Notes under the pieces: generated by a model
Seen by the model: only the letters and a program-made list of their open reading frames with translations
What the model was told of the DNA's origin: nothing
Database searches by the model: none
DNA from: a virus
Reading direction: 5' to 3' (one strand)
Virus record (IMG/VR): IMGVR_UViG_3300014502_000181
Coordinates: 1-20,735 of that record
DNA: 20,735 nucleotides
Position numbers and translations under genes: made by a program
Shown here: positions 34 to 20,735 of the stretch, in pieces
Position numbering within the stretch: the stretch's first letter is position 1
How the letters are laid out: each line of letters begins with the position of its first letter

Positions 34-1332
34 TTACGGACTATCTGCTATGCCGATATTAGACCGTATTATATAACCAGTTCCTGGAGTCCAAGCATCA
101 TCATTTACAATGTTTCCAAGTATTAAGTCGGCTTCGGCTGTGCCACGAAGTGTTATTCCATGAGTATTACCATAGGTATGATTGCCAATAACCTGATTAC
201 CTGTGCCACCTGTACTGTCAATGCCGTATGTAAAGCCAGACACAGTATTATTTACTACTTTATTTCCATAACCTGTTGCCCCAGGTGCAATCGCAATAGT
301 AGAACCACTACCGTCACTCATTAGAGTAGAATTACAGATAATGTTATCGTGACAATGCAATCCCCAAGCTTCGTTAAATAGAACACCCCTAAATGCGGCA
401 TTGGGCGAAGTAACTCCGCTAGTTGCACCATCAATGAGATTAAAACATCCGTCAATTTCGACTAGATTAGTTATTGCCTCGTTGCCACCTTCAAATTTTG
501 GTAAAATAAATTTGTTAGCATTGCAATAATTATTTAGAAATAGTTGAAAATATCCGCCATCCATATGTAAACCATAGAACACATTAGAACTTGTCTGTAT
601 TGTCGAAGTTCCGTCTAATCGTACTGTTTGGTTAGAAGAATAGCCGCATTCACCAATCTGGATGTCTCTAAAAACGGAATCTTGAAAACAAGTCCCATAT
701 ATCGCCCTGCCCTTAAAATTAGTGATTTTTAAGTCTTGGAATAATAATCCATACGTGTAATTGCCTACTGCCCCTGGTGATGCTATTTGTATGGCATCCG
801 AAGTAGCGGAATATGAGCGATTTGCCCCATCTAATTGAAAACCTGTTAATTGAGAAGCTATAGCGCCAACCGACCCAGAGCCTATTATAAAACAAACTCC
901 ATCATACGCTTGAGTTAAATAAGTGACAGCCTCCCCTCTACCATGTATCCCAACTTGACTGGGAACATAGATATTAGTAGTTATTGGGAATGATGCTGCG
1001 GTAATCCCTTCAGACAGTTCAATATCTCGATATCCGGCTGAAATTGCCGCATTTATCAAAGTTGAAACAGAAGTTGAAACTACAGCATTCGCTTGCGCCT
1101 TAACACTAGCCGGTGCATCCGATGCCGCTATGACATAGCCTGTACGCCCTGTGGGGGCATTGAGAGTGGTAATATTAGCCATTCCGATATTGGATGTGGT
1201 CGTTCCTAAAGTAGTTACTGTACCACTAGTCGCATTTATAGTCGGAGTAGTCACTGAACCAACTACAGTCAGATTACCCTGCACCAAGAAAGGTTCATTA
1301 TAATAAGTATCTCCACCTAAATATGTTGTCAT
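34..1332 (-). CDS. Tail spike / tail fibre-like protein with right-handed beta-helix
   Basis: 432 aa, ATG start behind a GGAG site (minus-strand ggtaggagagaac before ATG). The N-terminal ~70 residues are Thr/Gly/Val-rich and low in complexity, as in virion-attachment stalks (for example TVVGSVTTPTINATSGTV). From about residue 110 the protein has the short, Asn/Gly-rich, turn-punctuated repeats typical of pectate-lyase-like parallel beta-helices; GNKVVNNTVSGF, GNQVIGNHTYGNTHG and ILGNIVND near the C terminus recur at rung-like spacing. Such proteins are usually trimeric receptor-binding or polysaccharide-degrading tail spikes. I cannot assign catalytic residues. It is the last complete gene of the leftward structural module and directly follows a 54-aa gene and a GH18 hydrolase, which fits a host-surface recognition cassette. 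The substrate is unknown, and a non-enzymatic fibre is equally possible. Confidence 0.75.
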   Translation of the reverse strand: MTTYLGGDTYYNEPFLVQGNLTVVGSVTTPTINATSGTVTTLGTTTSNIGMANITTLNAPTGRTGYVIAASDAPASVKAQANAVVSTSVSTLINAAISAGYRDIELSEGITAASFPITTNIYVPSQVGIHGRGEAVTYLTQAYDGVCFIIGSGSVGAIASQLTGFQLDGANRSYSATSDAIQIASPGAVGNYTYGLLFQDLKITNFKGRAIYGTCFQDSVFRDIQIGECGYSSNQTVRLDGTSTIQTSSNVFYGLHMDGGYFQLFLNNYCNANKFILPKFEGGNEAITNLVEIDGCFNLIDGATSGVTSPNAAFRGVLFNEAWGLHCHDNIICNSTLMSDGSGSTIAIAPGATGYGNKVVNNTVSGFTYGIDSTGGTGNQVIGNHTYGNTHGITLRGTAEADLILGNIVNDDAWTPGTGYIIRSNIGIADSP

Positions 1333-1340
1333 GTTCTCTC

Positions 1341-1505
1341 CTACCAGCGTTCTCGCTGTGTTGGTTTCTTTTGTATCGTAGTCTGTGTATCCCAGTCCCA
1401 GATGAACGTTCTTGTTAGCAAACCTGTAGACCCACTAGTAGCTGTTACTGTCGGGGTAGCAGTAGTTACAGTATCTAATCCGACTCCACCTAAAGGTTCA
1501 CTCAT
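1341..1505 (-). CDS. Small Thr-rich virion-associated protein, 54 aa
   Basis: ATG at 1505 follows a clear AGGAG (minus-strand ggataggagaacaaat), and the frame runs 54 codons to TAG at 1341-1343, eight bases before the next start. The protein begins MSEPLGGVGLDTVTTATPTV and ends in a charged tail, KKPTQRERW. A Thr/Ser/Val-rich front (TVTATSGSTG) resembles the N-terminal stalk of the tail-spike-like protein that follows (TINATSGTVTT). I do not recognise a family. The ribosome binding site, the tight fit between neighbours and the composition support a real gene; a small tail or fibre accessory protein is the natural guess from position. Confidence 0.65.
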   Translation of the reverse strand: MSEPLGGVGLDTVTTATPTVTATSGSTGLLTRTFIWDWDTQTTIQKKPTQRERW

Positions 1506-1515
1506 ATTTGTTCTC

Positions 1516-2520
1516 CTATCCTATTGCACCGATTAGACTAAGTGGGAGTCGACTAGAAGCGACAGTTAGAACTTGAGGATTAAAATTGTCATAAGCCGTT
1601 TTTAATATTGACTGAGAAGTTAAAATAACGGATGTCATATAATCCTTCTCTATTGACCAAAAGCCTACCCCGCCGTAACCATTATTTTTCGCATAAGTGG
1701 CAATATCACTTACTTGATTTATTCCTTGCCAGATTAGCGTATAAGATGGCGCGGTCATTGTTTCGATTCCCCAAAATTCTGTAGTTATATGATATGGAGA
1801 TGATAGAACTATACTATTAAGACTTGGGTCAGGATTGTAGACATCTACGACATCATCCCACCATGCTCTTGCCCCGTAGGAAGATGACAAGTCGAAACCC
1901 TCCATTGCTAAACCAGGAAATATTTTACTCTTATCATATCCAGCGGCAGCCCAAGTATTGATAAAGTCTTCAACGTAGGCAGCGTCGCCGTAATAACTAG
2001 AGGTCATAAGATAATCTACTTTAGCAAACTCAGCTACCGTCACTTCAAATTGACTTTTACTCCACTGCGAGAATAGACTGATTTTCTGCCCTGCGGCGTG
2101 GAGGGTCGGATAGATAGCATCAATAAAAGCTGCCAGGTCAGTCTGGTGGTTAGCATCAAAATCTTCCCAATCCATATCTATACCATCTACGCTATAAGTT
2201 GTTACAGCAGCAAGTACATTTGATACTAAGGTAGCTCTTAAACCCGCGTTGTGCATGATCGCAGTTAAGTCAGTTGTACCTCCGATTGAAATGAGTATTT
2301 TGGTACTAGGTGAACTCGCTCTACAAGCAGACACGATATCAGGAAACCAGTTATTCGCTCCATCTTTAGTTACTAAAGTTGGATCAGCGGCAGAAGTAGC
2401 CGTTAAAGCAGAAAGCACCACTACATCTATTTTGTTCCAATTTATCCATGCCAGAAGATGATTCCGCATAGTTGCGCCGTTATCAAGGCAATCATTTGCA
2501 ATATAACCAATTATTTTCAT
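1516..2520 (-). CDS. Glycoside hydrolase family 18 (chitinase-like) protein of the structural cassette
   Basis: 334 aa. The family-18 active-site signature is complete: DGIDMDWED at residues 112-120 fits DxxDxDxE, with E119 as the expected proton donor and D115/D117 beside it. The preceding barrel strand carries the conserved SxGG (KILISIGG, 74-81), and the last strand ends with GVGFWSIEKD, W288 being the usual substrate-lining Trp. GH18 enzymes cleave beta-1,4 bonds next to N-acetylglucosamine by substrate-assisted catalysis. At the third strand, where many members have MxYD, this one reads MTSSYYG (172-178), so activity or specificity may differ. No signal peptide is seen. ATG at 2520 overlaps the upstream stop by one base (TAATG) with a GGGGG-type site. 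The location among tail-type genes suggests a virion-borne depolymerase rather than a lysis enzyme; this is inference. Confidence 0.88.
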   Translation of the reverse strand: MKIIGYIANDCLDNGATMRNHLLAWINWNKIDVVVLSALTATSAADPTLVTKDGANNWFPDIVSACRASSPSTKILISIGGTTDLTAIMHNAGLRATLVSNVLAAVTTYSVDGIDMDWEDFDANHQTDLAAFIDAIYPTLHAAGQKISLFSQWSKSQFEVTVAEFAKVDYLMTSSYYGDAAYVEDFINTWAAAGYDKSKIFPGLAMEGFDLSSSYGARAWWDDVVDVYNPDPSLNSIVLSSPYHITTEFWGIETMTAPSYTLIWQGINQVSDIATYAKNNGYGGVGFWSIEKDYMTSVILTSQSILKTAYDNFNPQVLTVASSRLPLSLIGAIG

Positions 2521-3488
2521 TAAAGTAGACCCCCTGCAACAAGTTTTCTACTGCTGATATTAGAAATACTTGGGGTAGATGCTGGAGTAACATTAGCGTA
2601 AATAGACCACTTTTGGGTGTAAGCAAATTGGGTAGGAGTCGCTAATGTCGCGTCCCATGCACCAAAAGTTCGTGCATTACTAAAAGTATCAACCGTTACT
2701 GTGTCTTTGGCACATCGAAACCATCCATCGGTATTAAAACAAAGATAGTGAGTAGCGGCAGTTAATACTGGAGGACTGGATATTGTACCTGTGGTCCAAC
2801 CCGGAGCATCATACTTCATAGAAACCGTAACTGATGGCGTACTACCTTTTAGTGCCAAAGTGGAGACTAAGTATATTGCCATTTGCATATTTTCCGTTGC
2901 ACTATTGTAGCCTCCCCCTACCGAAATTGTGGTGGCAGTACCCGCAACGGCTGTGGCTATAATTGCATTTACATACGACCCGCCATTTAGTGAGTCTTGC
3001 GTTGCGCCGAGCGTAGTGTATCCAAAAGTGTCGCCAACAGGATAGATGATATATGGTGGCTGAGATATTGCAAGAAAAGCCTTGTCAATCCACAATCTAA
3101 GTATTCCAGCTTTTTCTTTTGTCCAATCGCACCACGTTTCCATCGAGCCGTTTAATTCCTTTATTTTAAGCCGGTACAGATGGCCAATCTTACCAGCCCC
3201 GTATTCGTTATTAGACTTAAATGGATGGTAAAATGCCACGCTGTTAATTACATGGATTGGCTGAAAACTATGTCCATCATTCAATTCTGGCTGATGATAA
3301 GCTACTGCCCGATGGGAGTCATAGTTAAAGTCAATATATGGAAGTTTAGCGGGTAGACTGATAAAAGAGTCTATCCCCTTACCCTCATTGAATCCTTTAA
3401 CGAATCCGGTAGGCCTTTCGACAATTTGGATATTCTTGTTGGAAGGATTCAGTTCGATAGACGATTCGTTCCATTTAGTAATCTTCAT
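2520..3488 (-). CDS. Putative virion structural protein, 322 aa
   Basis: Family not recognised. The first ~170 residues are mixed alpha/beta with several aromatic residues (residues 70-130 include HVINSVAFYHPF and WCDWTKEKAGILRLWID). From about residue 170 the sequence is Gly/Thr/Ser-rich and strand-forming (NAIIATAVAGTATTISVGGG, later AIYLVSTLALKG, then TAATHYLCFNTDGWFR), the look of a jelly-roll or carbohydrate-binding beta-sandwich common at the tips of phage fibres. It ends one base into the GH18 gene (TAATG), implying translational coupling and perhaps joint assembly. The ATG at 3488 has only a weak Shine-Dalgarno match, but the start is fixed by the close upstream stop at 3490. A tail or baseplate role is inferred from context only. 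Confidence 0.6.
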   Translation of the reverse strand: MKITKWNESSIELNPSNKNIQIVERPTGFVKGFNEGKGIDSFISLPAKLPYIDFNYDSHRAVAYHQPELNDGHSFQPIHVINSVAFYHPFKSNNEYGAGKIGHLYRLKIKELNGSMETWCDWTKEKAGILRLWIDKAFLAISQPPYIIYPVGDTFGYTTLGATQDSLNGGSYVNAIIATAVAGTATTISVGGGYNSATENMQMAIYLVSTLALKGSTPSVTVSMKYDAPGWTTGTISSPPVLTAATHYLCFNTDGWFRCAKDTVTVDTFSNARTFGAWDATLATPTQFAYTQKWSIYANVTPASTPSISNISSRKLVAGGLL

Positions 3489-3489
3489 A

Positions 3490-4287
3490 TTATGCTGCCA
3501 CTAAGGTTGCGCCGGGACTAATCGGTATCCAAAGCACATCCCATTCTATTACGCCGGTACTTGTTGCCGACGTTGTGAGATGAATTACGCCAGAAGTAGT
3601 ACAAGTACATCCGAATGTTCCAGTTTGTGAGATATAGTTTGCGATGAGGTCAGTGAATACCATAGCGTCAGCTAACGTACCTGTAATTGAGAAGGCGGTA
3701 CCGATGTGAACACCTGTAACGCTTGCAGAGGCAGCACAAAGGAAGTATTCAGCCAGTGCGTCAGCTATAAGACCTAACCTTAGCGTACAGGCTTGGGCTT
3801 GGATAGCAGTAGTACATCTTCCTACGATTGCCAGAATTTGAATCGTACCAGTCCAAGTAAAGAGGTTCCCTGTCGCTATATTAGTAGGCGACTTGGTGCC
3901 TCTCAGAGGGATAACATCGGTCTTGGTTTTGATACCTGCTATCGTCGGGTCAAGTGCCAGATTCTTGGAGGGCAGGATTGAGCAGACTACAGTGCCAGGA
4001 GCCGCCGATAAGGGTGTAAAGGTCATAGCACCAGTACCAGAGTTGAAAGTTAGAATCTCAGCCCAATCTCCCGCAGCTGCACCGGTGTCCGGGGAGATAA
4101 TTCCTCCCACAAATTGAACCGTTGACCCAATCAATCCGGTAAATGTTGCAGCAGTTGATGATGTACTGGTCGTTACTGTTGCCGAGATTACCTTGTTAGT
4201 ACCAAGGGCAGCGATGATAGTATCTTCTTTGGCTTGGGTAGCATCACCACCACCTGCACCACCAGTAGAAAAAATATCTAATCCCAT
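3490..4287 (-). CDS. Putative virion structural protein, 265 aa
   Basis: Start chosen at ATG 4287 (MGLDIFSTGGAGGGDATQAK), because the GGAG at about 4301 sits nine bases upstream of it, whereas the alternative GTG at 4293 would leave only three. The protein is Ala/Thr/Gly/Ile-rich with a glycine-rich N terminus followed by a short ATQAKEDTIIAALGT helix, a pattern often seen at the front of phage tail and neck proteins. The rest reads as alternating short strands, with Cys-containing segments (GRCTTAIQAQACTLRLG; FGCTCTTSG). No enzyme motif is visible. It lies two bases from the next gene in the same operon. A structural role is inferred from composition and neighbours. Confidence 0.6.
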   Translation of the reverse strand: MGLDIFSTGGAGGGDATQAKEDTIIAALGTNKVISATVTTSTSSTAATFTGLIGSTVQFVGGIISPDTGAAAGDWAEILTFNSGTGAMTFTPLSAAPGTVVCSILPSKNLALDPTIAGIKTKTDVIPLRGTKSPTNIATGNLFTWTGTIQILAIVGRCTTAIQAQACTLRLGLIADALAEYFLCAASASVTGVHIGTAFSITGTLADAMVFTDLIANYISQTGTFGCTCTTSGVIHLTTSATSTGVIEWDVLWIPISPGATLVAA

Positions 4288-4318
4288 TTTCACACACTCC
4301 TAATTATTCAAATCTAAA

Positions 4319-4642
4319 TTACATTCGATAGCCACGGGCATAGAAAGTACGGTCTGCCGCTTGCCCGGCTGAAGTTTTAATTTTTATAAACTGGAAACCT
4401 CCCAGTTGTAAGGTAGTAGAGAAACCTCCAGAACTTGATGCTATAACATTGCTACTATCCCCCAAGGTTTGATAGGTTTCAGCAGATTTACGGGCAACTA
4501 ACAAACCTATAGTTGAAGCTGTTATTGCCGGAATTACTAACTGCATGTATTCCCATGAATTTCCCAAATCACAGGCAGGGGTCAAATCATCATCGGTAGC
4601 TTGAACAAGGGTAATTGTTTTCCATTCTCCGTATAGACTCAT
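4319..4642 (-). CDS. Small putative structural protein, 107 aa
   Basis: The start is placed at ATG 4642 (MSLYGEWKTITLVQATDDDL), behind minus-strand AGGAGAGTGTGTG; a reading extended to 4681 would run through the hairpin at 4661-4687 and lacks a binding site. The leader closely matches that of the next gene (GGAGTGTGTG), suggesting a local duplication or shared design. The protein reads as a single beta-rich domain, ending FIKIKTSAGQAADRTFYARGYRM, in the style of phage decoration or tail-completion proteins where each strand pair ends in a Gly turn. No family is recognised. It lies between a zinc-finger-like protein and a putative structural protein. Confidence 0.55.
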   Translation of the reverse strand: MSLYGEWKTITLVQATDDDLTPACDLGNSWEYMQLVIPAITASTIGLLVARKSAETYQTLGDSSNVIASSSGGFSTTLQLGGFQFIKIKTSAGQAADRTFYARGYRM

Positions 4643-4660
4643 CACACACTCTCCTAAAAT

Positions 4661-4687
4661 TAGTGGTTGATTAAGGCTCAACCACTA
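4661..4687 (-). other. Perfect 10-bp intercistronic hairpin
   Basis: tagtggttga (4661-4670) and tcaaccacta (4678-4687) are exact reverse complements around a 7-base loop. In the direction of transcription (minus) the stem is followed by ATTTT and then the ribosome binding site of the 107-aa gene. It could be a weak or partial terminator, or a transcript-end or 5'-protecting structure that sets relative protein amounts. The U-tract is short, so complete termination is doubtful. Confidence 0.6.
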
Positions 4688-4699
4688 AAGCCCTTTCTT

Positions 4700-5374
4700 T
4701 TAGACTTTATATTCTAAATGTGCCTGCCCCATCTTGCTGGTAAACATATGAGGTTTACTACATTTGGAGCAATTATACATGAGACTTTCTGTTGAAGGTT
4801 CCACAAAAGGAATTTCTTCCTGTGGTGCATTGCGGGCAACTTGATTAAGAATCAGATGTTGAAGTGCCCTATCTTCCTCACGTTCTTTCGCTAGCCGTTC
4901 CTGCTCGATGGACTTCCATTCTTGCGGGTGACGTTTAACCATATGTTGTTCCAACTGGTAACGGCTAGTGATATTACTCTTGGGGCAGGTTCTGAACCCG
5001 AGTTCATTAAAATGTTGACGGTTCGGGGAGTCTTTGTGGAGCATACATTTTATATCTCCCCGTTTGGGTTTCTGCCCGGGGTCAATAGTTGTGAACCGAT
5101 ACGACCCGTCAGGTCGGCGTGAACGCAACTTGCTCGGGAGCATGTAGTAAAGACACGGGACTTTTTCAAAAGTATCTGTCTCCCAAATCCAGACGTAGCC
5201 AGCACTTGAAACTTTGCTTACTACCATTGGGGCAGGCTGGTCTTCTGACCCCTTATGAATAATTGGGTTCTTTGATAGAACATCCTCTATCTCGGTTGGT
5301 TTGGCACTTCGAAGCATTTCCTGAATCATGTCCTCATTATCTTGTTCGATTGCCTTTTTCTGTGTATCCTCCAC
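4700..5374 (-). CDS. Zinc-finger-like protein within the structural operon, 224 aa
   Basis: The start is GTG at 5374, five bases after a perfect AGGAGG; an ATG at 5376 is in another frame. N-terminal residues 1-45 are acidic and helical (MEDTQKKAIEQDNEDMIQEM). The middle, about residues 110-155, contains C110 (IKCMLHK) and then RTCPKSNITSRYQLEQHMVK followed by RH. The spacing Cys-x13-His-x4-His resembles the second half of a classical C2H2 finger, with the first Cys displaced about 20 residues upstream. A charged helix (KSIEQERLAKEREEDRALQH) follows, and the C terminus has a second module: CSKCSKPHMFTSKMGQAHL, a CxxC with a distant His. Zinc binding is likely from these motifs; the job is unknown. 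Nucleic-acid binding, or a zinc-stabilised neck or head protein, would both fit. Confidence 0.6.
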   Translation of the reverse strand: MEDTQKKAIEQDNEDMIQEMLRSAKPTEIEDVLSKNPIIHKGSEDQPAPMVVSKVSSAGYVWIWETDTFEKVPCLYYMLPSKLRSRRPDGSYRFTTIDPGQKPKRGDIKCMLHKDSPNRQHFNELGFRTCPKSNITSRYQLEQHMVKRHPQEWKSIEQERLAKEREEDRALQHLILNQVARNAPQEEIPFVEPSTESLMYNCSKCSKPHMFTSKMGQAHLEYKV

Positions 5375-5421
5375 ATTGTCCTCCTAAGACAAGGTTCCTG
5401 TTTTCACAGTTACTTATTATT

Positions 5422-5733
5422 TTATTCTAATTTGAAATCGTTGGTTTCTAGTAGTTGGGCAACATCTATGCCCTTGTCCTCTCTTAATTCATCTGCTATT
5501 CCTCGGAGTTCGTCAACTGTGTGTTCGAACATCGAGGGAATATTTAGTTGCCGGATTCCTTTGAACTTACTTGCTAGACCCATAGATTCACGGTATTCAG
5601 CAAGTTTTCCATCTCGGTTGACTACGATGATTCGGTAACGTTTAGATTCACCTTTAGGTGAAGGCAGGTTGACTTCGATATAAGTCCATGCTTTTTCGCT
5701 ACCTTGGATTGTTGTTGCTATCGGTGTGAGCAT
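5422..5733 (-). CDS. Conserved-looking small phage protein, 103 aa
   Basis: Start set at ATG 5733 (MLTPIATTIQGSEKAWTYIE) with AAGGAG four bases upstream; a longer reading to 5799 would overlap the upstream gene and cross the 5748-5770 hairpin. The first half is beta-rich and charged (residues 20-50, including KGESKRYRIIVVNRDGKLAE). The second half is helical (SMFEHTVDELRGIADELRED) and ends LLETNDFKLE. No family or catalytic motif is recognised. The soluble, non-repetitive composition differs from the surrounding Thr/Gly-rich structural proteins, so it may be an assembly chaperone, neck component or minor head protein. Confidence 0.55.
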   Translation of the reverse strand: MLTPIATTIQGSEKAWTYIEVNLPSPKGESKRYRIIVVNRDGKLAEYRESMGLASKFKGIRQLNIPSMFEHTVDELRGIADELREDKGIDVAQLLETNDFKLE

Positions 5734-5747
5734 ATACTCCTTAAATA

Positions 5748-5770
5748 GAGTGGGTACAAGGCCCCCACTC
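5748..5770 (-). other. 7-bp intercistronic hairpin
   Basis: gagtggg (5748-5754) pairs exactly with cccactc (5764-5770) around a 9-base loop. On the transcribed minus strand the stem is followed by TATTT and then AAGGAG of the next gene. Same placement as the hairpins at 4661 and 6371: between a stop codon and the following ribosome binding site. Terminator-like, but the U-run is poor; RNA stability or translation control is as likely. Confidence 0.5.
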
Positions 5771-5782
5771 ACGGCACTAAGA

Positions 5783-6334
5783 TTATGCAGCGTCAGCAAT
5801 ACGTAGACAGATAACAGTAGTCGCCGCTGTTATAATACAGCGGTAAATAGCTGCTTTATTCTGGGCGATAGTGGCCGCAGCATTATAGAGAGTAATTCCT
5901 GTGTTGGTTGTTACCGTGATGGTATTGGCACCACCAGAAAGATTAACAATCGTGAAGTCAAACTGGACACCAACAGAACTATCTCCTGTTGCGGCGAGAA
6001 CCGCAGCTATAATGTCGGTGGCTAAAGGTAAGGTTAATGTGCAACCCGTTGAAACCGTGTCTTCAATGTAGCCGGCCAAAAGGTCAGCGGCTGAGTAGGT
6101 TACAGTGGCTCCGGAAGTCTTTGCTACTTTGGTGGCCTTTGAGAATGCAACCCCTGTCGCTGGCGACCAAACCGTGCCAGCACTTGTCATAGAACCAGTT
6201 ACAGTTACATTGGGCACGATGCTGGCCGTAGAAGCTGTGAAGGCAGCTACTTTAGTCGTTCCCACATAAACCTCTAGGGCGCTTGTTGATGGATTCCATT
6301 TCCATCCATGGTATTTAGTATCTTTAACAGCCAT
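5783..6334 (-). CDS. Putative virion decoration or fibre-type protein, 183 aa
   Basis: ATG at 6334 follows AAGGAG by six bases. The protein opens with a hydrophilic segment containing aromatics (KYHGWKWNPSTSALEVYVGT), then a Ser/Thr/Val-rich stretch with small repeated units (VTVTGSMTSAGT), then a compact Ala/Thr/Ile-rich beta domain ending CIITAATTVICLRIADAA. This N-terminal style (WxWxPxxxALEVYVGTTKVA) is common in phage structural proteins that display short beta units. It is flanked on both sides by perfect hairpins, as though its expression were set separately from its neighbours, which would fit a high-copy virion protein. Function is inferred; no family is named with certainty. Confidence 0.6.
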   Translation of the reverse strand: MAVKDTKYHGWKWNPSTSALEVYVGTTKVAAFTASTASIVPNVTVTGSMTSAGTVWSPATGVAFSKATKVAKTSGATVTYSAADLLAGYIEDTVSTGCTLTLPLATDIIAAVLAATGDSSVGVQFDFTIVNLSGGANTITVTTNTGITLYNAAATIAQNKAAIYRCIITAATTVICLRIADAA

Positions 6335-6370
6335 TTTTTCTCCTTAGCGGATAACTCCGCAGTTGATAAG

Positions 6371-6396
6371 AGTAGTTCTTTTCAGGAAGAACTACT
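6371..6396 (-). other. Perfect 10-bp intercistronic hairpin
   Basis: agtagttctt (6371-6380) and aagaactact (6387-6396) are exact reverse complements with a 6-base loop. It lies between the 251-aa gene's stop (6416) and the start at 6334, about 25 bases before the ribosome binding site. Neither side has a U-run, so an ordinary rho-independent terminator is unlikely; a processing or stabilising structure is a better guess. Confidence 0.55.
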
Positions 6397-6415
6397 AAGA
6401 CCTTCTAAATTAATT

Positions 6416-7171
6416 TTATACTGTCCAATCACGGGCAGCGGTGACTAACATATAGTCAACATCGAGGTCGGTGACAGTTGTGGTTGTTGCCCACACGCCA
6501 ACGATGGCTGCTTGAAGTGTGGTTGTTGAGACCGCTGTTTTAACAGTTTTCTTCAATACACCATCAATGTAGTAGCGGGCAGTACCATTCCGGTCAATTT
6601 CTACACGGCAGACATTGTACTTAGCAGCTACCACTAGTACACCAGTTGTTACTAAGGTTGAAGTTGTAACACCCGTGGTCTCTCCACCATTGTAGACAGC
6701 ATGCCAGTAACCTGCGGCGGTCAGAGCGGAATCCCAGAACAAACCGCAGAGGTGAGAAGCAGTCAAGGTCAAGGTCGTAGTTGCACCAGTCAACGGGGAT
6801 AGGACATCATCGGCTAAGGTTCCGCAGAAGCCAACGAATACACGCCGAGCCGTTAACACTTGGGATTGAACCCTAGCTTCAACTACTATGGTGCCATTGA
6901 CAGAAGGTTTGAACTGGAGGTCGGTAGTCAGGGCGCAACCTTTGGTTGACTGGTCGGTACCTGTTAGACGAATGACCCCACTAGGAACACCCATCGCTAC
7001 TGCACCCGAGTCGGTTTCACCTAACATACCACGAACAGCATAGTCGCCCAGATAGTAGTTACATCCACCTGCGGTTGTACCATAGGCGACTGCATTGGCT
7101 ACGGGAATTTCCGGGCCGCAGAAGTCATTGAATAATTTAATTTTTCCACATTCACTTTGAACAGTTGCCAT
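6416..7171 (-). CDS. Putative beta-sandwich (lectin-like) virion protein, 251 aa
   Basis: ATG at 7171 with AGGAG seven bases upstream (minus-strand cacaggagaaaaaca). The sequence suggests a concanavalin-A/laminin-G-type jelly roll. It has long alternating strands, an internal GFCGTLADD turn, a Trp-containing strand (LFWDSALTAAGYWHAVYNGG), and a late strand pair, YNVCRVEIDRNGTARYYIDG followed by VLKKTV. That pair is the 'v.rIeidgtgtvrfYiDG.lv' arrangement common in lectin-fold phage proteins. The protein ends with DLDVDYMLVTAARDWTV. A decoration protein or carbohydrate-binding head protein is plausible given its place shortly after the capsid gene. Its first 20 bases overlap the end of the upstream HNH-like gene, which suggests that the endonuclease genes were inserted immediately in front of it. 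Confidence 0.6.
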   Translation of the reverse strand: MATVQSECGKIKLFNDFCGPEIPVANAVAYGTTAGGCNYYLGDYAVRGMLGETDSGAVAMGVPSGVIRLTGTDQSTKGCALTTDLQFKPSVNGTIVVEARVQSQVLTARRVFVGFCGTLADDVLSPLTGATTTLTLTASHLCGLFWDSALTAAGYWHAVYNGGETTGVTTSTLVTTGVLVVAAKYNVCRVEIDRNGTARYYIDGVLKKTVKTAVSTTTLQAAIVGVWATTTTVTDLDVDYMLVTAARDWTV

Positions 7172-7385
7172 TGTTTTTCTCCTGTGACTCTTTTAAGAGT
7201 CTTTCAAGGTTTCTAATCCTTTCCTCGAAAGGTGAGATAACCTGACCTACGTTAGTAGGATTTCTTGGTATTGCCGCTAAGTTTTCTACTCGGCAATCAG
7301 AAGGATTTCCATTGAGGGTGTAGACGAGCCACCCTCGTGGAATCGGGCCGTGGATTGTTGACCACACTTCTCGTCTAGTGTTCAT
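7152..7385 (-). CDS. Degenerate HNH-endonuclease-like protein, 77 aa
   Basis: The core matches the C-terminal half of the HNH_3-type phage endonucleases: GPIPRGWLVYTLNGN followed by DCRVENLAAIPR corresponds to the usual 'G.iP.g..v.h.dGn..n.r.eNL'. The catalytic His that normally sits just before the DGN strand is replaced (VYT), and the N-terminal half of a typical protein is missing, so nuclease activity is doubtful. The tail is a charged helix (EERIRNLERLLKESQEKNNG). The start ATG at 7385 overlaps the stop of the LAGLIDADG gene as ATGA and has no good ribosome binding site of its own, implying termination-reinitiation. It runs 20 bases into the next structural gene. It could be a decaying homing endonuclease or a retained DNA-binding piece. 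Confidence 0.65.
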   Translation of the reverse strand: MNTRREVWSTIHGPIPRGWLVYTLNGNPSDCRVENLAAIPRNPTNVGQVISPFEERIRNLERLLKESQEKNNGNCSK

Positions 7386-7801
7386 TTTGAACCACGTTTA
7401 TTTAATTCTAACATCTTTTTTCGTAAGTCTTGCCTGTACGTCTGGATGTCTATAGGGACTCCCTTTGTGTTTGAAGAACTTACAGTTTTGTTAAACTGAA
7501 GAGCTACTTGGCATTGTTCCTTTTTGGCTTTCAAATAAGGTTGGGCAGCTTCAAGAATTTCAGAACTTGGCTTTCCAGCAAATATTAAATCTGAACAAGA
7601 TTTCCAACCAAACTTTTTAGTCCTACAAGAAGATAACCAACCACCCCATATAGCCTTTAATTCAGCTAATAGATTAACATTAGTATTAGTTATGGATATA
7701 CGGACTGAAGGACTTCTAACTCCACCATGATTGTCAATCCCGATGGAACCTTCACCATCAATGATACCTGCCAAATAAGCTCTGTCAGTTTCACTAACCA
7801 T
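7382..7801 (-). CDS. LAGLIDADG homing endonuclease (single motif)
   Basis: 139 aa from ATG 7801, which follows GAGGA by six bases; a GTG at 7813 overlaps the capsid stop but has no binding site. The family signature LAGIIDGEGSI lies at residues 10-20, with D15 as the expected metal-binding acid at the end of the first helix, followed by a strand and VRISITNTN, then WGGW. One motif in a protein of this size means it should act as a homodimer, as in I-CreI-type enzymes. There is no intron sign, so this looks like a free-standing homing gene that recognises and cuts a nearby locus lacking it. It sits directly behind the capsid gene, a conserved target favoured by such elements. Together with the HNH-like gene it forms a coupled two-gene insert. 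Confidence 0.85.
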   Translation of the reverse strand: MVSETDRAYLAGIIDGEGSIGIDNHGGVRSPSVRISITNTNVNLLAELKAIWGGWLSSCRTKKFGWKSCSDLIFAGKPSSEILEAAQPYLKAKKEQCQVALQFNKTVSSSNTKGVPIDIQTYRQDLRKKMLELNKRGSK

Positions 7802-7809
7802 ATTATTCC

Positions 7810-8694
7810 TCACGAAGTAGGAGCGGTGGCATCGGATACAATTTTTTGCACCCAGCCGTAGGCTGCGGAAGGTCGTTCAGCATAGGCATATTCGTCATAA
7901 TGGTAAACATGGTCTCCACCTCCACCACGTTTCTCATTACGGACGGTAACTACCCGAGGTGCTCTGCCTTGAACAAGGACGATACCTTCTTGGCAGAAAA
8001 CTCCACCAATGGCATCATCGTTGCCATCTATTACGATGTTACCATCTTCATAGATTTCAGCGCCAGCAATCGGGAGTTGGAAACCGTTGGCAAAAACGTT
8101 TGCAGTCGGGCCATCTGCAACGATGCCAGTACCAACACCAGCGACCAGTTCATCAAACAAGTCTTTCATCTGGAAGCCGTGTAGGACACAGCGGTATGGT
8201 TTAACACCCGGCTCGGTGGCATTGCTGGAGATGTTGTAAACAGCCGCAGCAATATAACCAGAGGTCAAAGTGTTACCTGCGCCCGGGGAGGCCGTGGTTG
8301 CGCCAGTAGCGAAGATAGTTAGACCATCGGTATCTTTCTTCCGTTGAATCGCATTTTGGGCAAGAGTACCAATCTTGGAATAACCAGTCTTGTTAATTCT
8401 TGCTTGAACCCGGTCAGTAAGGAAGGTCTCAATACCCACGACAGTCGGGGTCACAGTCAGCAATGCATCAGCAATTTGCTGCGGATTGTCGAGGTCGGTT
8501 GTTTCCGTGATAGCCTGTGCTTGCAGGGCAGAGTAGGTTATTTCCTGCCACGACAAACCAATGCCTTCACCTAACGTAACCTTATCGACAAGTTGTGGCA
8601 TGACACCTTCGTACTCACGTACGATACGAGCAGAACTCCTGATGTCATCCAAAGAGTTCGCAAGTGAACCAGTAGTAGTCCATCCAGCACCCAT
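7810..8694 (-). CDS. Major capsid protein (HK97-fold type)
   Basis: 294 aa; ATG at 8694 with AAAGGAG seven bases upstream, one of the strongest sites in the window. Placement immediately after a coiled-coil scaffold and downstream of portal and terminase is the standard capsid position. The pattern fits the phage coat family: an N-terminal helix and arm (SSARIVREYEGVMPQLVDKV), an E-loop-like segment (WQEITYSALQAQAITETTDL), a spine helix (VGIETFLTDRVQARINKTGY, then IGTLAQNAIQRKKD), an A-domain with CVLHGFQMKDLFDEL, and a C-terminal VTVRNEKRGGGGDHVYHYDE followed by YAYAERPSAAYGWVQKI. I assign capsid identity from context and this layout, not from a specific signature. Confidence 0.85.
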   Translation of the reverse strand: MGAGWTTTGSLANSLDDIRSSARIVREYEGVMPQLVDKVTLGEGIGLSWQEITYSALQAQAITETTDLDNPQQIADALLTVTPTVVGIETFLTDRVQARINKTGYSKIGTLAQNAIQRKKDTDGLTIFATGATTASPGAGNTLTSGYIAAAVYNISSNATEPGVKPYRCVLHGFQMKDLFDELVAGVGTGIVADGPTANVFANGFQLPIAGAEIYEDGNIVIDGNDDAIGGVFCQEGIVLVQGRAPRVVTVRNEKRGGGGDHVYHYDEYAYAERPSAAYGWVQKIVSDATAPTS

Positions 8695-9883: not shown

Positions 9884-12800
9884 CTATCCGTAATAAATTT
9901 TGTAGGCTGCGGCTACCGCAGGACTCTGTTCTTTGTAGGCCTTCTTGTACTGTAAAATTAAAGTCTTTGCCCGTAGAATCTGAGGATACTTATAAGTGGC
10001 TTGCTTGGCAGCCGTAGGATTAGTTTGGGCAAGGACATCAATCGTATCGGAAATAGTTTTTAACTGCGGGTCGTACATTGACCAAACTCGGTCTGCTATC
10101 TGCCAATAAGGTCTGAGGATTTCCTTAGCTTGGTCTAATTGGACTAGAGGGGCAGGCTTATCCACCCACGTTGACCCCCGATAAGTATCGAGGTAACTCA
10201 TTGCTGCTGAACCATACTTGGTGATAAAGTTTTGATTGATTGTGTCTGCCATTTGGTAATCATAGTTACCATACTGGTCATACATTGTCGGACTATACAT
10301 AGCGGCGTTGTATTCTCTACGAATTACGTCACCAATATTCATAGTAGATTTTTCAGCATCGGTTAAAGGTTTATTGTATTGGGTAATAATACTGGCATAC
10401 TGCGGCTGGGCTGCCCGTTGTCCGTACATCTTGTTCCGAACATCGGCGGCATCTTGAACTTTCGTTCTTAAAGTCACACCATCCCCGGTGGCTTGAAATT
10501 CTTTGGAGGCTAATGTAACAGCCGCTCGGTAGGTATCTTCAATAGACTTTCCATCTTTATACCACGCACTCATTACCGATGGATTGTTTGCAAACTGTAA
10601 CTCTTGAGCTTTCTGGGCTTTAATAATTGAAGGGTCGGTCTGCATTAGAACTAATTGGGCGGCTACACCTTGTTCTTTACCAAGGGTCGCCCAATCCACA
10701 CCAGCAGCTTTCATTGCCGCTGTATCTTCAGCTTTCAAGGTTGGGTTAGAATAGGTAGTCACACCCACTCCGAGGAAACTAGAAGAGTTAACCACGCCAC
10801 CCGCCCAACTAGACTGAACTGCCCCATCAACTAAGTCTTGAATTGCTAAAGGCATCAAGCGTTGATAGACTTGTTTACCTAACGCCGAAGTATTGGCTGG
10901 GGGCAGAGACTCACCCATATAGGTTTGTCCTGAGAGAACATCATTGATAAGTCCGGCAGCAGGAGATAGTTTAGTTTGGGCAAAACGTAATGCAATTTGT
11001 TGTCGGTTAGCTGGTTGGATAACTCCGCTTTGTGTTTTAGTTTCACCGGATGTTATCTGTGCCATAAATCTAATGTACTGAGCATATCCTGTCCAGATGT
11101 CAAGATGACTATCTCCGACAACTAATTTTCCGAAGTCTGCTGAACGAGGGTCAAGCTCTAACTTCTTTACTGCCCCAGATAAACGGGCAGCAGTCAGGAT
11201 TCCTGCCCCAACACCAATGGCAGCAAGTAAAGTTTTCGTGGCTTCTTTTCTAGCAAGGGCAGATTTAGTAACAGATGGTAAGATAGCCGCTGGAAACTCT
11301 AACCTAGAAAGTATTAACTTGGGGGCAAAGAACATACCATTGAGAAGTGCACCCTCTTGACTAATAGCTTTGGGCAGAGTACCCCGCCCCGTTGCCCAGT
11401 TAATCATTTGTGATAGGTCGGCTATATCAGAGTCAGTATATTTGACTCCTGCTTTTTCCCATAGAGCTAGGGCTTGTTCACCAACACGACTTCGAAGGTC
11501 ATTCAAACCTGTTACATACGCCCGGTTGGAAGCTTTAACAAATGGTACTTTGTTCAATAAGGTAGACATGAAGGACTCTTCACGGTCATTGATAACTGTG
11601 GCCACTGTCCCCACTGTCGGGGCAATGTAAAGACCGTTCTTCACGAGTTGGTCAAAATGAGGTCTGGCCCGAATAATAGAATCAACTAGAGCTTCGTTCT
11701 TATCAGACAACAAAGCCTTTAACATTGGTTCAACTGTCTTTGCTGCTTCTAACGGATGGGCAGCAGTTAAGATTCCACCTTGTCTCAATAGACCTGAGAT
11801 GTCGCAGGAAGCCAACAAAGTTCTAGGGGCATTGAGTAAGTCTAATGCAAACTCTCCCGCTTTCTGCCCGAAAGTTCTTTTTTCTAGTAAGGCTTTAACA
11901 AGGTCTGAACCAAAAGTTTTCTCTAGTAACTTCAACTGGTTCATTTGCGGGATACCATTAAGGAGTAAAGTTTGGACAGCTTTGAAAGTATTTATCCGTT
12001 GGTATTCATCTTTGTAGCCTGTTTGTAAAACGATGTCAAAAATATTACTAACATCTTTCTGCCCAAGTTCTTGACGTAAAGTTTGGAACTCAGGAGTAAT
12101 TGGAGCCTGCTCCATGGCCCCAGCCATTTTTCCTAGTGCTTTGGATAAGGTCTGCTCCGGGTTATTACTAGTGGTCTGCCCTTTCTCGATTGCCTTTTGA
12201 TAGGTGCTAATCTTGGCAGCCCGCTGTTCCGTGTAGAGAGTTTCTGTAGATTCCCGGAATCCTTTAGATTCCTTAATCATCTGATACAGTTTATCCAATG
12301 TTGCTGACTGGTCCGGGGTAAAACCTTGAGGATTAAATACAGAAGTTCGAATAATCTTTGGGGTTTCTGGAGTCGGGGGATTCAAATCAACAGGAGGTTT
12401 TGGAGGTTCAATCGGGGGAGTAACCGCCTCGGCAAGTGTCGGGTTCAATGGTTTGGTTGCATTCAAAGTCGGGTCAACCGCAGGATTCGGCTCAGGAATA
12501 TCAGCCAAAGCTTTCTTCACACCCAAAGTATTTTCTTTGGCTATTGTTTTTGCTGTAGGTACTTTACCTTGACCTATAGGTTTACCTTGTGGAGCCAACT
12601 GTGCCGCCTGACTGGGGATAACAGAGTTCAGGTCTTTCCAATTCTCACCAGCTTGGGCAACATGATAGGTGTTCAAGATACTTTCAGAAACCTGAGTGGC
12701 ATCCCCGATGTCACCTTTAGTGAAGGACTTATACATGCGGGCTTTAAGATAATCATCTGTCGAGAAGTCAGCTACTTGGTCAAGATACTTAGTCGCTACC

Positions 12801-14865: not shown

Positions 14866-15135
14866 TTATTTCACCTCGGTTTGTAACTGCTGTACCTTTG
14901 CATATTCTCGATTAAAGATTGTTTTAGACAATGGCGAATCAGACTTCTGCCCGTAGATTACAGTCAACTTGGTCAGGTCTTCGGGTGTCCACTGGTCGTA
15001 AGGTTTGCCAATCAAGGACTCGGGATTTCCAATGTCCTCAAGGGGGTCGGCAATAGTCTCGACAATAGCATCAAGAGCTATCATCTTCAAGGTGATTGCT
15101 TTCTCCACGGCGGCGATGAAAGGAGTTGTCTTCAT
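14866..15135 (-). CDS. Small helical protein after the portal gene, 89 aa
   Basis: ATG 15135 overlaps the portal stop as TAATG, with GGAGGG about ten bases upstream, so it is probably translated with the portal. It is mostly helical: ATG-proximal PFIAAVEKAITLKMIALDAI, acidic DPLEDIGNPESLIGKPYDQW, then TPEDLTKLTVIYGQKSDSPL and a short coiled tail (REYAKVQQLQTEVK). No family is recognised. Its size and coupling would suit a portal-associated or head-completion protein; this is inference. Confidence 0.6.
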   Translation of the reverse strand: MKTTPFIAAVEKAITLKMIALDAIVETIADPLEDIGNPESLIGKPYDQWTPEDLTKLTVIYGQKSDSPLSKTIFNREYAKVQQLQTEVK

Positions 15136-17003
15136 TATCTCTGCCCTCCACCACCACGACCTTGCGTTGGGTTCATTGGGACTTGAGAACGTGCCTGAGC
15201 CATTTGGTTTTGGAGGTCAACAGCACCACCCGGAGGCACGATACTGCGATTTGAGGGCACTAGCTGCCTTCCTGGGGCTTGAGAACCTGGGGCCTGTGGT
15301 TGGTTAGGGCCTCCTGGTAATTGACCCACCAGCGACTGCCCTGCGTCGCCGAGGATGGGTGTTGGCGGCAAGTCGTTGATGCTTTCTGCCTGACTACGTT
15401 TTGTCATGGCTTGCATTAACCGGCCCGCTGTGTACTGGGATAGAATAGATTGGACCATTGGGTCTTGTAGAAGATGTTCAACTTCGATTTCAACTTCCAT
15501 TGCTTGTGGGTCGATGTTAGACATTTGCTTTCTCGCCCAGTTCGCCGTAATGAGACCAGACTTGTACAGCCGTTCGAGATCGTCATGCCTGCGGTATTCA
15601 TCTTCCTCGTTGATTGGGGCAAACTCTACATAGAAAGTGAACGGAGGATTCATTTTAGCCTTTTGAATCTCAATATCAAATTCATCGGTAGGTGTCCTTG
15701 CCCAAACGGAGACATCGCCGGGGACAACGTACTTTAAGATGTTCGCACAGTTACTGAGAACTTTGGCGATACCATTCTTAAAGGCTTGGTTAGAATACTC
15801 ATAACGAGAACTGGCTTCGGCAATCAACTGCCGGCGGTCACTGCCCGAACGAACATTGGTTTCTCCCATACCACGAACAGAAGGTGGAGCACCATGCCCA
15901 GCAAGGTAGGTAGAAGCTACATTGAGCCAAGTAAGTAAAGCATCCGGGGGCACCTTGGGGGACATATCATGAATCTCCACCCCATCGGGCAGAGTATTGT
16001 ATTCACCAAACTTCTGAAAGATTTGAGTAACACCTGAGGCATTCGGTCCAGTGAGATAACCCCAAGGAAAGGCGGTCTTGCCAAGGATAACATCACCGAT
16101 TGAGTAATCACGGGACTCAGAGATGAGTAATTCTTTAACATATCTGAGAACCCCGACATAACGTTTCTTGAGGTCGTTGTCAGAAGAGATGTTGCCTAGT
16201 CCTGAGTCAATAGGAGTGTAGGGCAGGAACCCATAAGTGTGTTCAACTACGGAACCTTTAAGTACTGGCTCCCGGTCGTAAAGTTCACAACGATAATCTT
16301 TGGTCCAGAAAGAAATATGAACAACTCGGTCTGAGACTTTTTTACCAAGAGGGTTTTTCCACCCCGGGAACTGTTGAGAAACATTGAAGACTAACTCTTC
16401 GTTAGTCTCAAAAGCAAAATCCATTCCACCCGTGTAAGGGTCGAACATCATGTTTCTAGGATGGATACCTTGAAGAACAATCGGGATAGAGTTATGGGAT
16501 TCAGAACGCCATGTGTCAATCCGACCAGCGTAAGCTTCCTCGGATTCACCCTTGTTCTGAGTAGGCTTATCTATCCAGCGGTCTGCATCCCAAACACTTT
16601 TAACAATAGCCAAGCCGTGCATCCAGTAGTGTTTAGCACAAACTCGGATAGGAGCGATAGAGGCTTCGATGTTGTTCCGGTAGAGAACACCGAGACCAAA
16701 CTTACGGAGAAGATTTTGTTCATCTTCTGACTTAATAGACTCACCTTTCTTATTGACATAGACTCGGGCATTGAAGATGTCAGTATGATCAACACAGGTG
16801 TCCACAATATCACGGGCTGTTGGGAGGACAATACCTTGGTTAGCAAACTCTTTGGGCAGACCTAGTTGACTTTTGAAGTCTAACTCATAGAGCTGGTCGT
16901 CTAAGTCGAACTGCCGGTACAGACCCGTCTCTTCATAGCGAGCCTTGCAGTCATCGTATAGGGCAAGGATATTGTCGACTGAGGGTTTTTGTTTTTTTGC
17001 CAT
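15135..17003 (-). CDS. Portal protein
   Basis: 622 aa, the usual length for a phage portal, directly behind the large terminase (one base apart). The N-terminal third has the portal-like order of helices and wing strands, with RQFDLDDQLYELDFKSQLGL and then IVLPTARDIVDTCVDHTDIF, and a mid-protein HYWMHGLAIVKSVWDAD. The crown/stem region includes GHGAPPSVRGMGETNVRSGS and the long helix EASSRYEYSNQAFKNGIAKV. The C-terminal ~90 residues are Pro/Gln/Gly-rich and disordered, ending GRGGGGQR. Portals form a dodecameric ring at one capsid vertex through which terminase pumps DNA. ATG 17003 has a weak GAGAAAG site, consistent with coupling to terminase translation. Identity rests on length, order and general pattern. 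Confidence 0.87.
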   Translation of the reverse strand: MAKKQKPSVDNILALYDDCKARYEETGLYRQFDLDDQLYELDFKSQLGLPKEFANQGIVLPTARDIVDTCVDHTDIFNARVYVNKKGESIKSEDEQNLLRKFGLGVLYRNNIEASIAPIRVCAKHYWMHGLAIVKSVWDADRWIDKPTQNKGESEEAYAGRIDTWRSESHNSIPIVLQGIHPRNMMFDPYTGGMDFAFETNEELVFNVSQQFPGWKNPLGKKVSDRVVHISFWTKDYRCELYDREPVLKGSVVEHTYGFLPYTPIDSGLGNISSDNDLKKRYVGVLRYVKELLISESRDYSIGDVILGKTAFPWGYLTGPNASGVTQIFQKFGEYNTLPDGVEIHDMSPKVPPDALLTWLNVASTYLAGHGAPPSVRGMGETNVRSGSDRRQLIAEASSRYEYSNQAFKNGIAKVLSNCANILKYVVPGDVSVWARTPTDEFDIEIQKAKMNPPFTFYVEFAPINEEDEYRRHDDLERLYKSGLITANWARKQMSNIDPQAMEVEIEVEHLLQDPMVQSILSQYTAGRLMQAMTKRSQAESINDLPPTPILGDAGQSLVGQLPGGPNQPQAPGSQAPGRQLVPSNRSIVPPGGAVDLQNQMAQARSQVPMNPTQGRGGGGQR

Positions 17004-17004
17004 A

Positions 17005-18264
17005 TTACTTTCTCATCCAACGATTTATGATTTGGTCATTCGGGGCTTCGTCGTAGGTCAGTGACTTAATTGCTTGGAGGGCCATCGGGCGGGCAGTGGC
17101 AAAGCCAAATTGTTCCGTTAGGCCCCAGATTGCATAACGCATGGCATCGACAAGATGGTCGTTGTACTTCACCGGCTCGGGCAGGAATGAGTCTTCCCCC
17201 GAAGCATTTTTGTCCTTGGCCCAGTGATAGTTCTGAATCTCGGTTATCAAATGAGAAGAGGCTTGGGGAATGTACAAAGTTTGTCGTTGACATAGGTCGA
17301 TAGACTCCTTTACCCCTTTGTGCCCTTCGTAGCAGTTGTAGCCTGCCCGTTGAATCTCAGCAATCATCTGTTTCGCTGACGGGTCGGCATAGATGTTAGC
17401 TCTGGACTCATGAGAAAAGAACTCTATGATGTCGGCGTTGGTTAACCCTGACTGGTAGAGTCTCTCTTCGCAGTAGAATTTATCACCGAAGAGGTAGACC
17501 TTAACAACAGCCGAGGGATTAACCAAGCCGAAATCCAAACCGTATGCCCATTTTCCTCCTTTTAACTCAGGTAGGTCGGGCAGAAGTTTGTAGTTGGAGT
17601 ATATCTTTCCTTCCAATAAACCCCACTCGCCCAAGACATAGACTCGGTAGGCGTTCTCGTCTTGATTGATTAGGTCTAGTAGCATGGCTTTGTAGGCCTG
17701 ACTTAGATAGGGATTGTCTTGGAAGGTAGATTTAACAATGGTAACATCGGTTTCAAGGGCAGCCTTGGTAGCGACCCAGTTGTGGGCATCAATAGGGTTC
17801 AATGAAATGTACAGATGATTATGTTCTGTGGGCAGACACTGACCTGAGAGACGTAGCTTTAACGCAACATAGTCTTGGTAGTCGAACTCGTTGGCCTCTT
17901 CCATCCAGATGTAGTTGAACTCGGTAGACTTAATCTTTTCAGACTCGTCAAGGCCGAAGAACTGGATGGTGTTGTCGCCGTAGGTATAGGTATTGAAGGT
18001 CTTGTTATGGGCAGGCTCACGGTAGATACCATACTGTTTGAGCAAGTCTATGACAAGGGCCATAGCTGTCATCCGGAGGGCAGGAAAGGTCTTTCGGCAG
18101 ATACCAAACTTTTTCCCATGCTCCGTGAGAAGCTTTTCAATGAGGAGTTGGGCAATAGAGTAAGATTTACTGGAACGTGCCCCGCCTACGTTGATAATGA
18201 TAGTAGTGGCAGCAGACCTAGTTCTCGCAAAGACTGAGGTATAGACGATGTCACGGGTGGGCAA
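17005..18264 (-). CDS. terL: Terminase large subunit (packaging ATPase/nuclease)
   Basis: 419 aa. The ATPase half has a Walker A-type loop GGARSSKS (27-34), a Walker B strand FNYIWMEEAN with E123/E124, and the coupling motif LYISLNP (152-158). The RNase-H-like nuclease half shows the three acids in order: YGLDFG (D245), IYADPS (D295) and DHLVDAMRYA (D374). This layout matches the Terminase_3-type enzymes that pump and cut phage DNA at the portal. The start is TTG at 18264: AAGGAG lies six bases upstream and no in-frame ATG is available nearby; the ATG seen at about 18281 is in another frame. A TTG start may limit the amount of this low-copy motor protein. A portal gene follows immediately. 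Confidence 0.95.
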   Translation of the reverse strand: MPTRDIVYTSVFARTRSAATTIIINVGGARSSKSYSIAQLLIEKLLTEHGKKFGICRKTFPALRMTAMALVIDLLKQYGIYREPAHNKTFNTYTYGDNTIQFFGLDESEKIKSTEFNYIWMEEANEFDYQDYVALKLRLSGQCLPTEHNHLYISLNPIDAHNWVATKAALETDVTIVKSTFQDNPYLSQAYKAMLLDLINQDENAYRVYVLGEWGLLEGKIYSNYKLLPDLPELKGGKWAYGLDFGLVNPSAVVKVYLFGDKFYCEERLYQSGLTNADIIEFFSHESRANIYADPSAKQMIAEIQRAGYNCYEGHKGVKESIDLCQRQTLYIPQASSHLITEIQNYHWAKDKNASGEDSFLPEPVKYNDHLVDAMRYAIWGLTEQFGFATARPMALQAIKSLTYDEAPNDQIINRWMRK

Positions 18265-20196: not shown

Positions 20197-20735
20197 ATGC
20201 CTGAACAATCACCCTACCATGTTGGCGACAGACTCAGAGTCGTTGAAACCGCTGGATTCTACCCAGATGTCCATCTTGGAGACATCGGTATTTGCATCAG
20301 TCCCGGGGAAATAGAATTTATTAGCTCTGGGCATTCTCCACTTCGGCAGTGGTTTTATCCTAGGAACGTAACACTAGCCGAGACTACTAACTCTCCAGAA
20401 GCCGATGAGCCTGACGAGGACACTATCTATTGTGACCAGTGTGGCTGTAAAGTTAGTGAAGATGATGCTATCTGCCCAGAAGAAACTGAGCTTAGCCGAC
20501 ACTACTCTTGTCTCTGCCCAGACTGCGCTGGTCACTATGCAAACACCTGCCAATGGTGTGATAATGTCTTTTATGCCTATTATCACGACACCTTCTGCCC
20601 TTCCTGCGCCGATGACCATTTCGTCTGTGACTCTTGTGGCGAGGCATTCTCTAACGATAATTACGAAGAGGATGGATACTGCCGAGACTGTTGGGAAGAA
20701 AACCATCACGGTGAAGCCGGGCACGTTCACGACCA
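20197..20735 (+). CDS. Multi-zinc-ribbon protein with SH3/KOW-like N terminus (partial, cut by window end)
   Basis: ATG 20197 follows AAGGAG by eight bases; 179 codons are read with no stop before the window ends. Residues 6-60 look like a small SH3/KOW barrel (YHVGDRLRVVETAGF, LGDIGICISPGEIEF, QWFYPRNVTL). After an acidic linker (EADEPDEDT) come paired cysteines: C79/C82, C84, C93, C105/C107/C110, C118/C121, C134/C137, C144/C147 and C162/C165, making at least four CxxC modules (YCDQCGCKV, CQWCDNVF, FCPSCADD, FVCDSCGEAF, YCRDCWEEN), then a His-rich end. Rows of such ribbons precede the catalytic domain in many phage amidoligase-type proteins (Amidoligase_2), usually followed by a 'HDYSYKP'-like junction. 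The visible ending GHVHD might be approaching that junction, but the enzyme part is outside the window, so this stays a suggestion. Confidence 0.8.
   Translation, partial: MPEQSPYHVGDRLRVVETAGFYPDVHLGDIGICISPGEIEFISSGHSPLRQWFYPRNVTLAETTNSPEADEPDEDTIYCDQCGCKVSEDDAICPEETELSRHYSCLCPDCAGHYANTCQWCDNVFYAYYHDTFCPSCADDHFVCDSCGEAFSNDNYEEDGYCRDCWEENHHGEAGHVHD

Follow-up and report, generated by a model that had tools for sequence, protein, structure and literature searches.

Most known phage depolymerases are beta-helix spikes. Tail-gene GH18 enzymes with a TIM barrel have, to our knowledge, been sparsely described in phages, with phage TP-84 as the tested case. The glycosylase-depolymerase TP84_26 of this Geobacillus phage has been detected in virions and removes capsules (PMC10131341, PMC10815759), and the authors remarked on its likeness to GH18 (PMC10131341). 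A prophage-borne chitinase gene of phage_KT1 has been reported to aid the growth of its host, which has a chitinase of its own described as belonging to GH18 (PMC11788074), and the Bacillus phage vB_BpuM_BpSp carries in its virion a glycoside hydrolase acting on peptidoglycan that belongs, however, to GH25 (PMC4870245). Basilisk gp52, a ‘chitinase’ cited in PMC4870245, was set aside as a virion precedent, since no chitinase domain was found in it (PMC6145125).

We analyzed a linear viral record of 20,735 bases, probably a fragment, referred to at its full length as the window. On its minus strand, ORF calling and Pfam searches located a stand-alone GH18 catalytic domain of 334 aa with an ATG start (1516..2520). 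Pfam profile PF00704 matched residues 3-293 (E=3.3e-18; 66.8 bits, with the cut-off at 29.6), and chitinases were the top matches in a phmmer search of PDB chains (best 5.7e-9), while the profile for EndoS-type endo-beta-N-acetylglucosaminidases, PF23916, remained below its cut-off (21.6 versus 27 bits). In 2,000 shuffles of the window's proteins, the string DG.D.DWE never arose, compared to 3.4% of shuffles for the looser D..D.D.E. The product is a divergent GH18 glycoside hydrolase: identity to the aligned homologues was ~15-22% in a 35-sequence alignment, and the nearest homologues found reached roughly 20-34% at best. Searches with exact peptide patterns in viral and genome contigs revealed no close relatives, nor did phage records. 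A scan based on a three-sequence alignment recovered 59 distant cellular GH18 loci, the best with ~24-40% identity over short stretches.

An AlphaFold2 model based on 35 aligned sequences (mean pLDDT 79.7, pTM 0.81) displayed eight strands in TIM-barrel order (residues 2-8, 33-41, 74-80, 113-117, 149-153, 170-173, 200-205 and 284-288); as its input alignment comprised GH18 homologues only, this fold prediction is not evidence separate from the Pfam assignment. The GH18 identity proposed in the initial annotation was thus borne out by profile score and predicted barrel, and a fold lacking a TIM barrel, which it had named as grounds for rejection, did not arise. A structure search with the model aligned 999 chains, and the PDB matches listed were all GH18 chitinases or chitinase-like proteins. 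The best, a GH18 chitinase from Bacteroides thetaiotaomicron (PDB 3co4; Z 31.4, rmsd 3.2, 292 residues aligned), is unlike the window protein a cellular enzyme and shares 18% identity with it. Because the unreliable parts of the model (residues 214-230 and 242-258) fall at a possible strand 7/helix 7 insertion site, the GH18 subfamily is not callable.

Structure comparison of the model also led to TP84_26. Like the window gene, TP84_26 combines GH18-like motifs (the degenerate GIEIDCE and MTYD), an overlap with the upstream gene (4 bp, with a tail gene) and a proposed role as a capsule cutter. In contrast to the window protein, it has 991 aa, further domains and an altered first motif, and its phage infects a Gram-positive thermophile. 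The two proteins had no significant sequence similarity, and TP84_26 gave no PF00704 match.

The complete DxxDxDxE signature noted initially was confirmed as DGIDMDWE at residues 112-119 (codons 2164..2187, minus strand). Model and alignment placed it on barrel strand beta-4 (113-117), and alignments identified E119 as the catalytic acid. D112, G113, D115, D117, W118 and E119 were invariant in alignments of 35 and 78 sequences. The SxGG motif of strand 3 (S78, G80, G81) was likewise present in the alignment with 78 homologues, as was the conserved Trp closing beta-8 (strand 284-288), W288 (codon 1657..1659, minus strand; Trp in 71 of 78). The third motif, MxYD in its common form, corresponds according to column counts to S174-S175-Y176-Y177 on beta-6 (codons 1990..2001, minus strand), and alignments of 7, 35 and 79 sequences agreed on these columns. 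The initial annotation was, therefore, right that this motif is altered but set the register wrongly by reading MTSSYYG from M172. The Tyr column (Tyr in 77/78 homologues) is retained as Y176, and the changes are Met to Ser and Asp to Tyr. The former is rare: Met occupies its column in 76 of 78 homologues, and S174 is the only Ser among those aligned. Loss of the Asp, here Y177, is common, with Asp in 64 homologues and absent in 14; its apparent enrichment in phage GH18 proteins (5/14 versus 9/64 in others) was not significant (Fisher p=0.12). At residue 207, Tyr in 68 of 78 homologues, the window protein has Glu. We take Y176 to be the Tyr by which GH18 enzymes hold the N-acetyl group, and the two changed motif-3 residues are presumably located at the lining of the sugar site.

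These substitutions bear on whether the protein is a weak or dead GH18 that serves as a glycan-binding receptor protein in the manner of a chitinase-like lectin, related to the binding-only version suggested initially. Besides the two motif-3 changes, this idea draws on the lectins YKL-39 and YKL-40 among the structural matches of the model. Inactive chitinase-like lectins, however, have typically lost the catalytic Glu, and the window protein retains E119 along with D115, D117, Y176 and W288; moreover, Asp-less GH18 proteins are common (14/78). The retained catalytic Tyr makes a binding-only protein unlikely, and because D115, D117, E119 and W288 are kept, the changes at 174, 177 and 207 do not point to a dead enzyme. 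We regard the lectin explanation as very unlikely. Judging from the alignments, the motif-3 and residue 207 changes may alter specificity, the -1 sugar site is plausibly altered and the Met-to-Ser and Asp-to-Tyr changes might weaken activity. Tentatively, the SSYY motif could mark a GH18 branch with a -1 site remodelled for a non-chitin bacterial surface glycan, with the protein carried on a podovirus-like particle as an exchangeable stand-alone enzyme.

Markers elsewhere in the record define the phage background. The major capsid protein (7810..8694, minus strand) shares 29% identity with the capsid protein of Pelagibacter phage HTVC112P, and the terminase large subunit (17005..18264, minus strand) matched Pfam PF04466 (E=6.7e-31), PF17288 and PHROG 2. 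The adjacent gene (15135..17003, minus strand) has no Pfam or PHROG family match and is, by position, a probable portal gene, with 61-65% identity to a terminase-adjacent gene in three other contigs (L003, L005 and L041). By sequence, the record probably represents a tailed, podovirus-like phage with a capsid distantly like those of Pelagibacter podoviruses. We compared 80 loci of capsid relatives with up to 81% identity. These loci (L158-L237) come from a large uncultured podovirus-like group with 117 relatives by capsid, and most of their structural-region proteins that were scanned matched neither PHROG nor Pfam families. The order capsid, g7152, g6416, g5422, g4700 is common to the capsid relatives, and gene content diverges after g4700 (4700..5374, minus strand), the end of the conserved block, which has homologues in 57 of the 80 loci. 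The equivalent slot in relatives contained no Pfam family; in one relative, L171, a PHROG tail-fibre protein occupies the region. Searches of 42 capsid-related and 37 terminase-related contigs turned up no GH18, an absence that is firm only in the long records, for example the 44.8-kb G003, as many are fragments. Being undetected in these relatives, the GH18 gene appears to be a swappable accessory.

Further features of the record were noted in passing. Two small capsid-adjacent genes (7152-7813, minus strand) look homing endonuclease-like by eye (HNH-like; YLAGIIDGEGSIGI suggests the LAGLIDADG type), and 46 of the 80 related loci carry a homologue of the first. A 1275-aa protein (9884-13711, minus strand) had no Pfam, PHROG or NCBIfam match but is partly conserved in related phages (up to 43% identity) and may be an internal or ejection protein. 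A Cys-rich, zinc-ribbon-like protein (20197-20733, plus strand), encoded opposite to the structural genes, runs past the contig end.

After g4700, a run of genes on one strand encodes, in order, a 120-aa protein (4319..4681, 44% identity to L188/L189 from relative phage contigs), a 267-aa protein of the same operon (3490..4293, 30% identity to L160/L161, a distant homologue in relative phage contigs), a 322-aa protein (2520..3488), the GH18, a 53-aa ORF with a GGAG-type RBS read directly from the sequence (1344..1505) and a 432-aa spike-like protein (34..1332), all on the minus strand. The TAA stop of 2520..3488 shares one base with the GH18 start (TAATG), which upholds the proposed coupling of the two genes. 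The fibre identity assigned to the upstream product was not recovered: searches of Pfam, PHROGs and phages returned nothing for it, and a single-sequence model reached pLDDT 32. We regard it as probably a fibre/tail protein. No virion-attachment domain is recognisable inside the 334-aa GH18 protein itself, and the coupled 2520..3488 product is a candidate particle-attachment partner of the enzyme. Similarly, the spike-like gene is adjacent as initially described, but the beta-helix rests on a sub-threshold NosD match (E=0.0048, 16.8 bits, cut-off 23.6), making a right-handed beta-helix possible. Peptide patterns from 2520..3488, 4700..5374 and 34..1332 found no relatives among viral contigs. 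The tail-module label thus relies on position and relatives, as the direct neighbours 2520..3488 and 34..1332 have no profile identification. Placement of the GH18 in a phage structural or host-interaction cassette is nonetheless supported by a slot that varies among relatives and follows conserved head genes. Separately, the C-termini of the GH18 (VASSRLPLSLIGAIG, 1516-1570, minus strand) and the upstream protein (ISSRKLVAGGLL, 2520-2570, minus strand) look similar, possibly as a common anchoring tail.

Base composition also sets this region apart: GC3 is 0.32 in the GH18 gene and 0.36 and 0.27 in the genes beside it, compared with 0.38-0.57 in core genes. The low GC3 shared by the upstream gene, GH18 and spike is consistent with one exchanged cassette, and a horizontally exchanged host-interaction cassette is the simplest account of the module. 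An assembly chimera, or a host gene joined to a phage contig, could also produce the lower GC of 34-3488 and the lack of GH18 in relatives. Against this, the genes overlap on one strand with no gap, and 3490..4293 and 4319..4681, which lie on the stretch from the GH18 to the conserved block, are represented by homologues in contigs of related phages, rendering such an artifact extremely improbable.

The phage_KT1 case, like the window a phage-borne chitinase gene, raises the question of whether the enzyme is an auxiliary chitinase, with the infected or lysogenic host or post-lysis debris gaining from chitin degradation. That prophage gene aids its host (PMC11788074), and GH18 is a common chitinase family. 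In contrast to this reported host-benefit chitinase, the window gene lies in a host-interaction module rather than a cargo locus and has no export signal: its N-terminus, MKIIGYIAN, is unlike a signal peptide in shape, and in the model barrel strand 1 already fills residues 2-8. This leaves no space for a signal peptide, which speaks against export as a chitinase benefiting the host. We also found no chitin-binding domain in the protein and no integrase or lysogeny gene among the scanned proteins, which cover part of the ORFs of a partial genome. We consider a host-benefit function unlikely.

GH18 enzymes acting on peptidoglycan or spore cortex exist (YaaH/SleL type), and an enzyme of this kind could work on the cell wall as a virion ejection lysin or in host lysis. 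Another parallel is the virion peptidoglycan hydrolase of vB_BpuM_BpSp, though from GH25 (PMC4870245). However, the GH18 gene was missing from all tested relatives and is, therefore, not the core lysin of the group, no LysM or SH3 wall-binding domains were found in its product, and it occupies a variable fibre slot. A cell-wall role, thus, seems fairly unlikely.

We also searched IMG/VR for GH18 in other viral settings. A pattern scan for DG[hydrophobic]D[hydrophobic]DWE-type strings returned 36 contigs, including L002; the GH18 cut-off was exceeded by L002 and by 17 of the 35 others. In L043, which is the same record as L002, the GH18 lies inside a protein matching PHROG tail-fibre families. 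Similar to the window, this 1329-aa protein is encoded near terminase and structural genes, contains DGIDMDWE in its GH18 and has a third motif, MSYI, likewise without Asp. It differs in that the GH18 is fused within a tail-fibre protein carrying another PHROG tail-fibre domain, and the two GH18 parts share only ~34% identity over 83 aa. By eye, this L043 protein (2725-6711, minus strand; terminase adjoining) joins tail-fibre domains, GH18 and an SGNH-type hydrolase-like C-terminal part. L062 encodes a tape-measure-like protein and Baseplate_J, with GH18 plus fn3 downstream of both, and in L077 GH18 occurs near a virion structural protein. L066 and L068 have it near nucleotide-metabolism or HNH genes and, thus, the context is not uniform. 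GH18 in a phage tail-type setting, therefore, has precedent in a few phages, and the window protein is a divergent example.

GH18 family, barrel, intact catalytic residues, module position and absence from relatives are computed features of the locus. We consider it rather likely that the gene encodes a genuine, probably active GH18 that is an interchangeable host-interaction part of a podovirus-like phage and depolymerises a GlcNAc-containing surface glycan, borne by the virion or the lysate. Presence in the virion is plausible from context and precedent. The 2520..3488 product, the GH18 and the spike-like 34..1332 product would probably be made together, with the GH18 placed on the virion or released with it and acting at adsorption or after release by lysis. 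It would cut beta-1,4 linkages beside N-acetylated sugars of a host surface polymer, which may be a capsule, an exopolysaccharide or an O-antigen. In the substrate-assisted retaining mechanism of GH18, E119 would be the acid, and D117 and Y176 would position the N-acetyl group. Activity, virion location and substrate are what we infer for the enzyme.

The main points of the window GH18 are its altered sugar site and its small stand-alone format; with 334 aa, it is directly assayable. Together with several unrelated viral contigs, the window suggests that GH18 enzymes were repeatedly recruited into phage host-binding modules.
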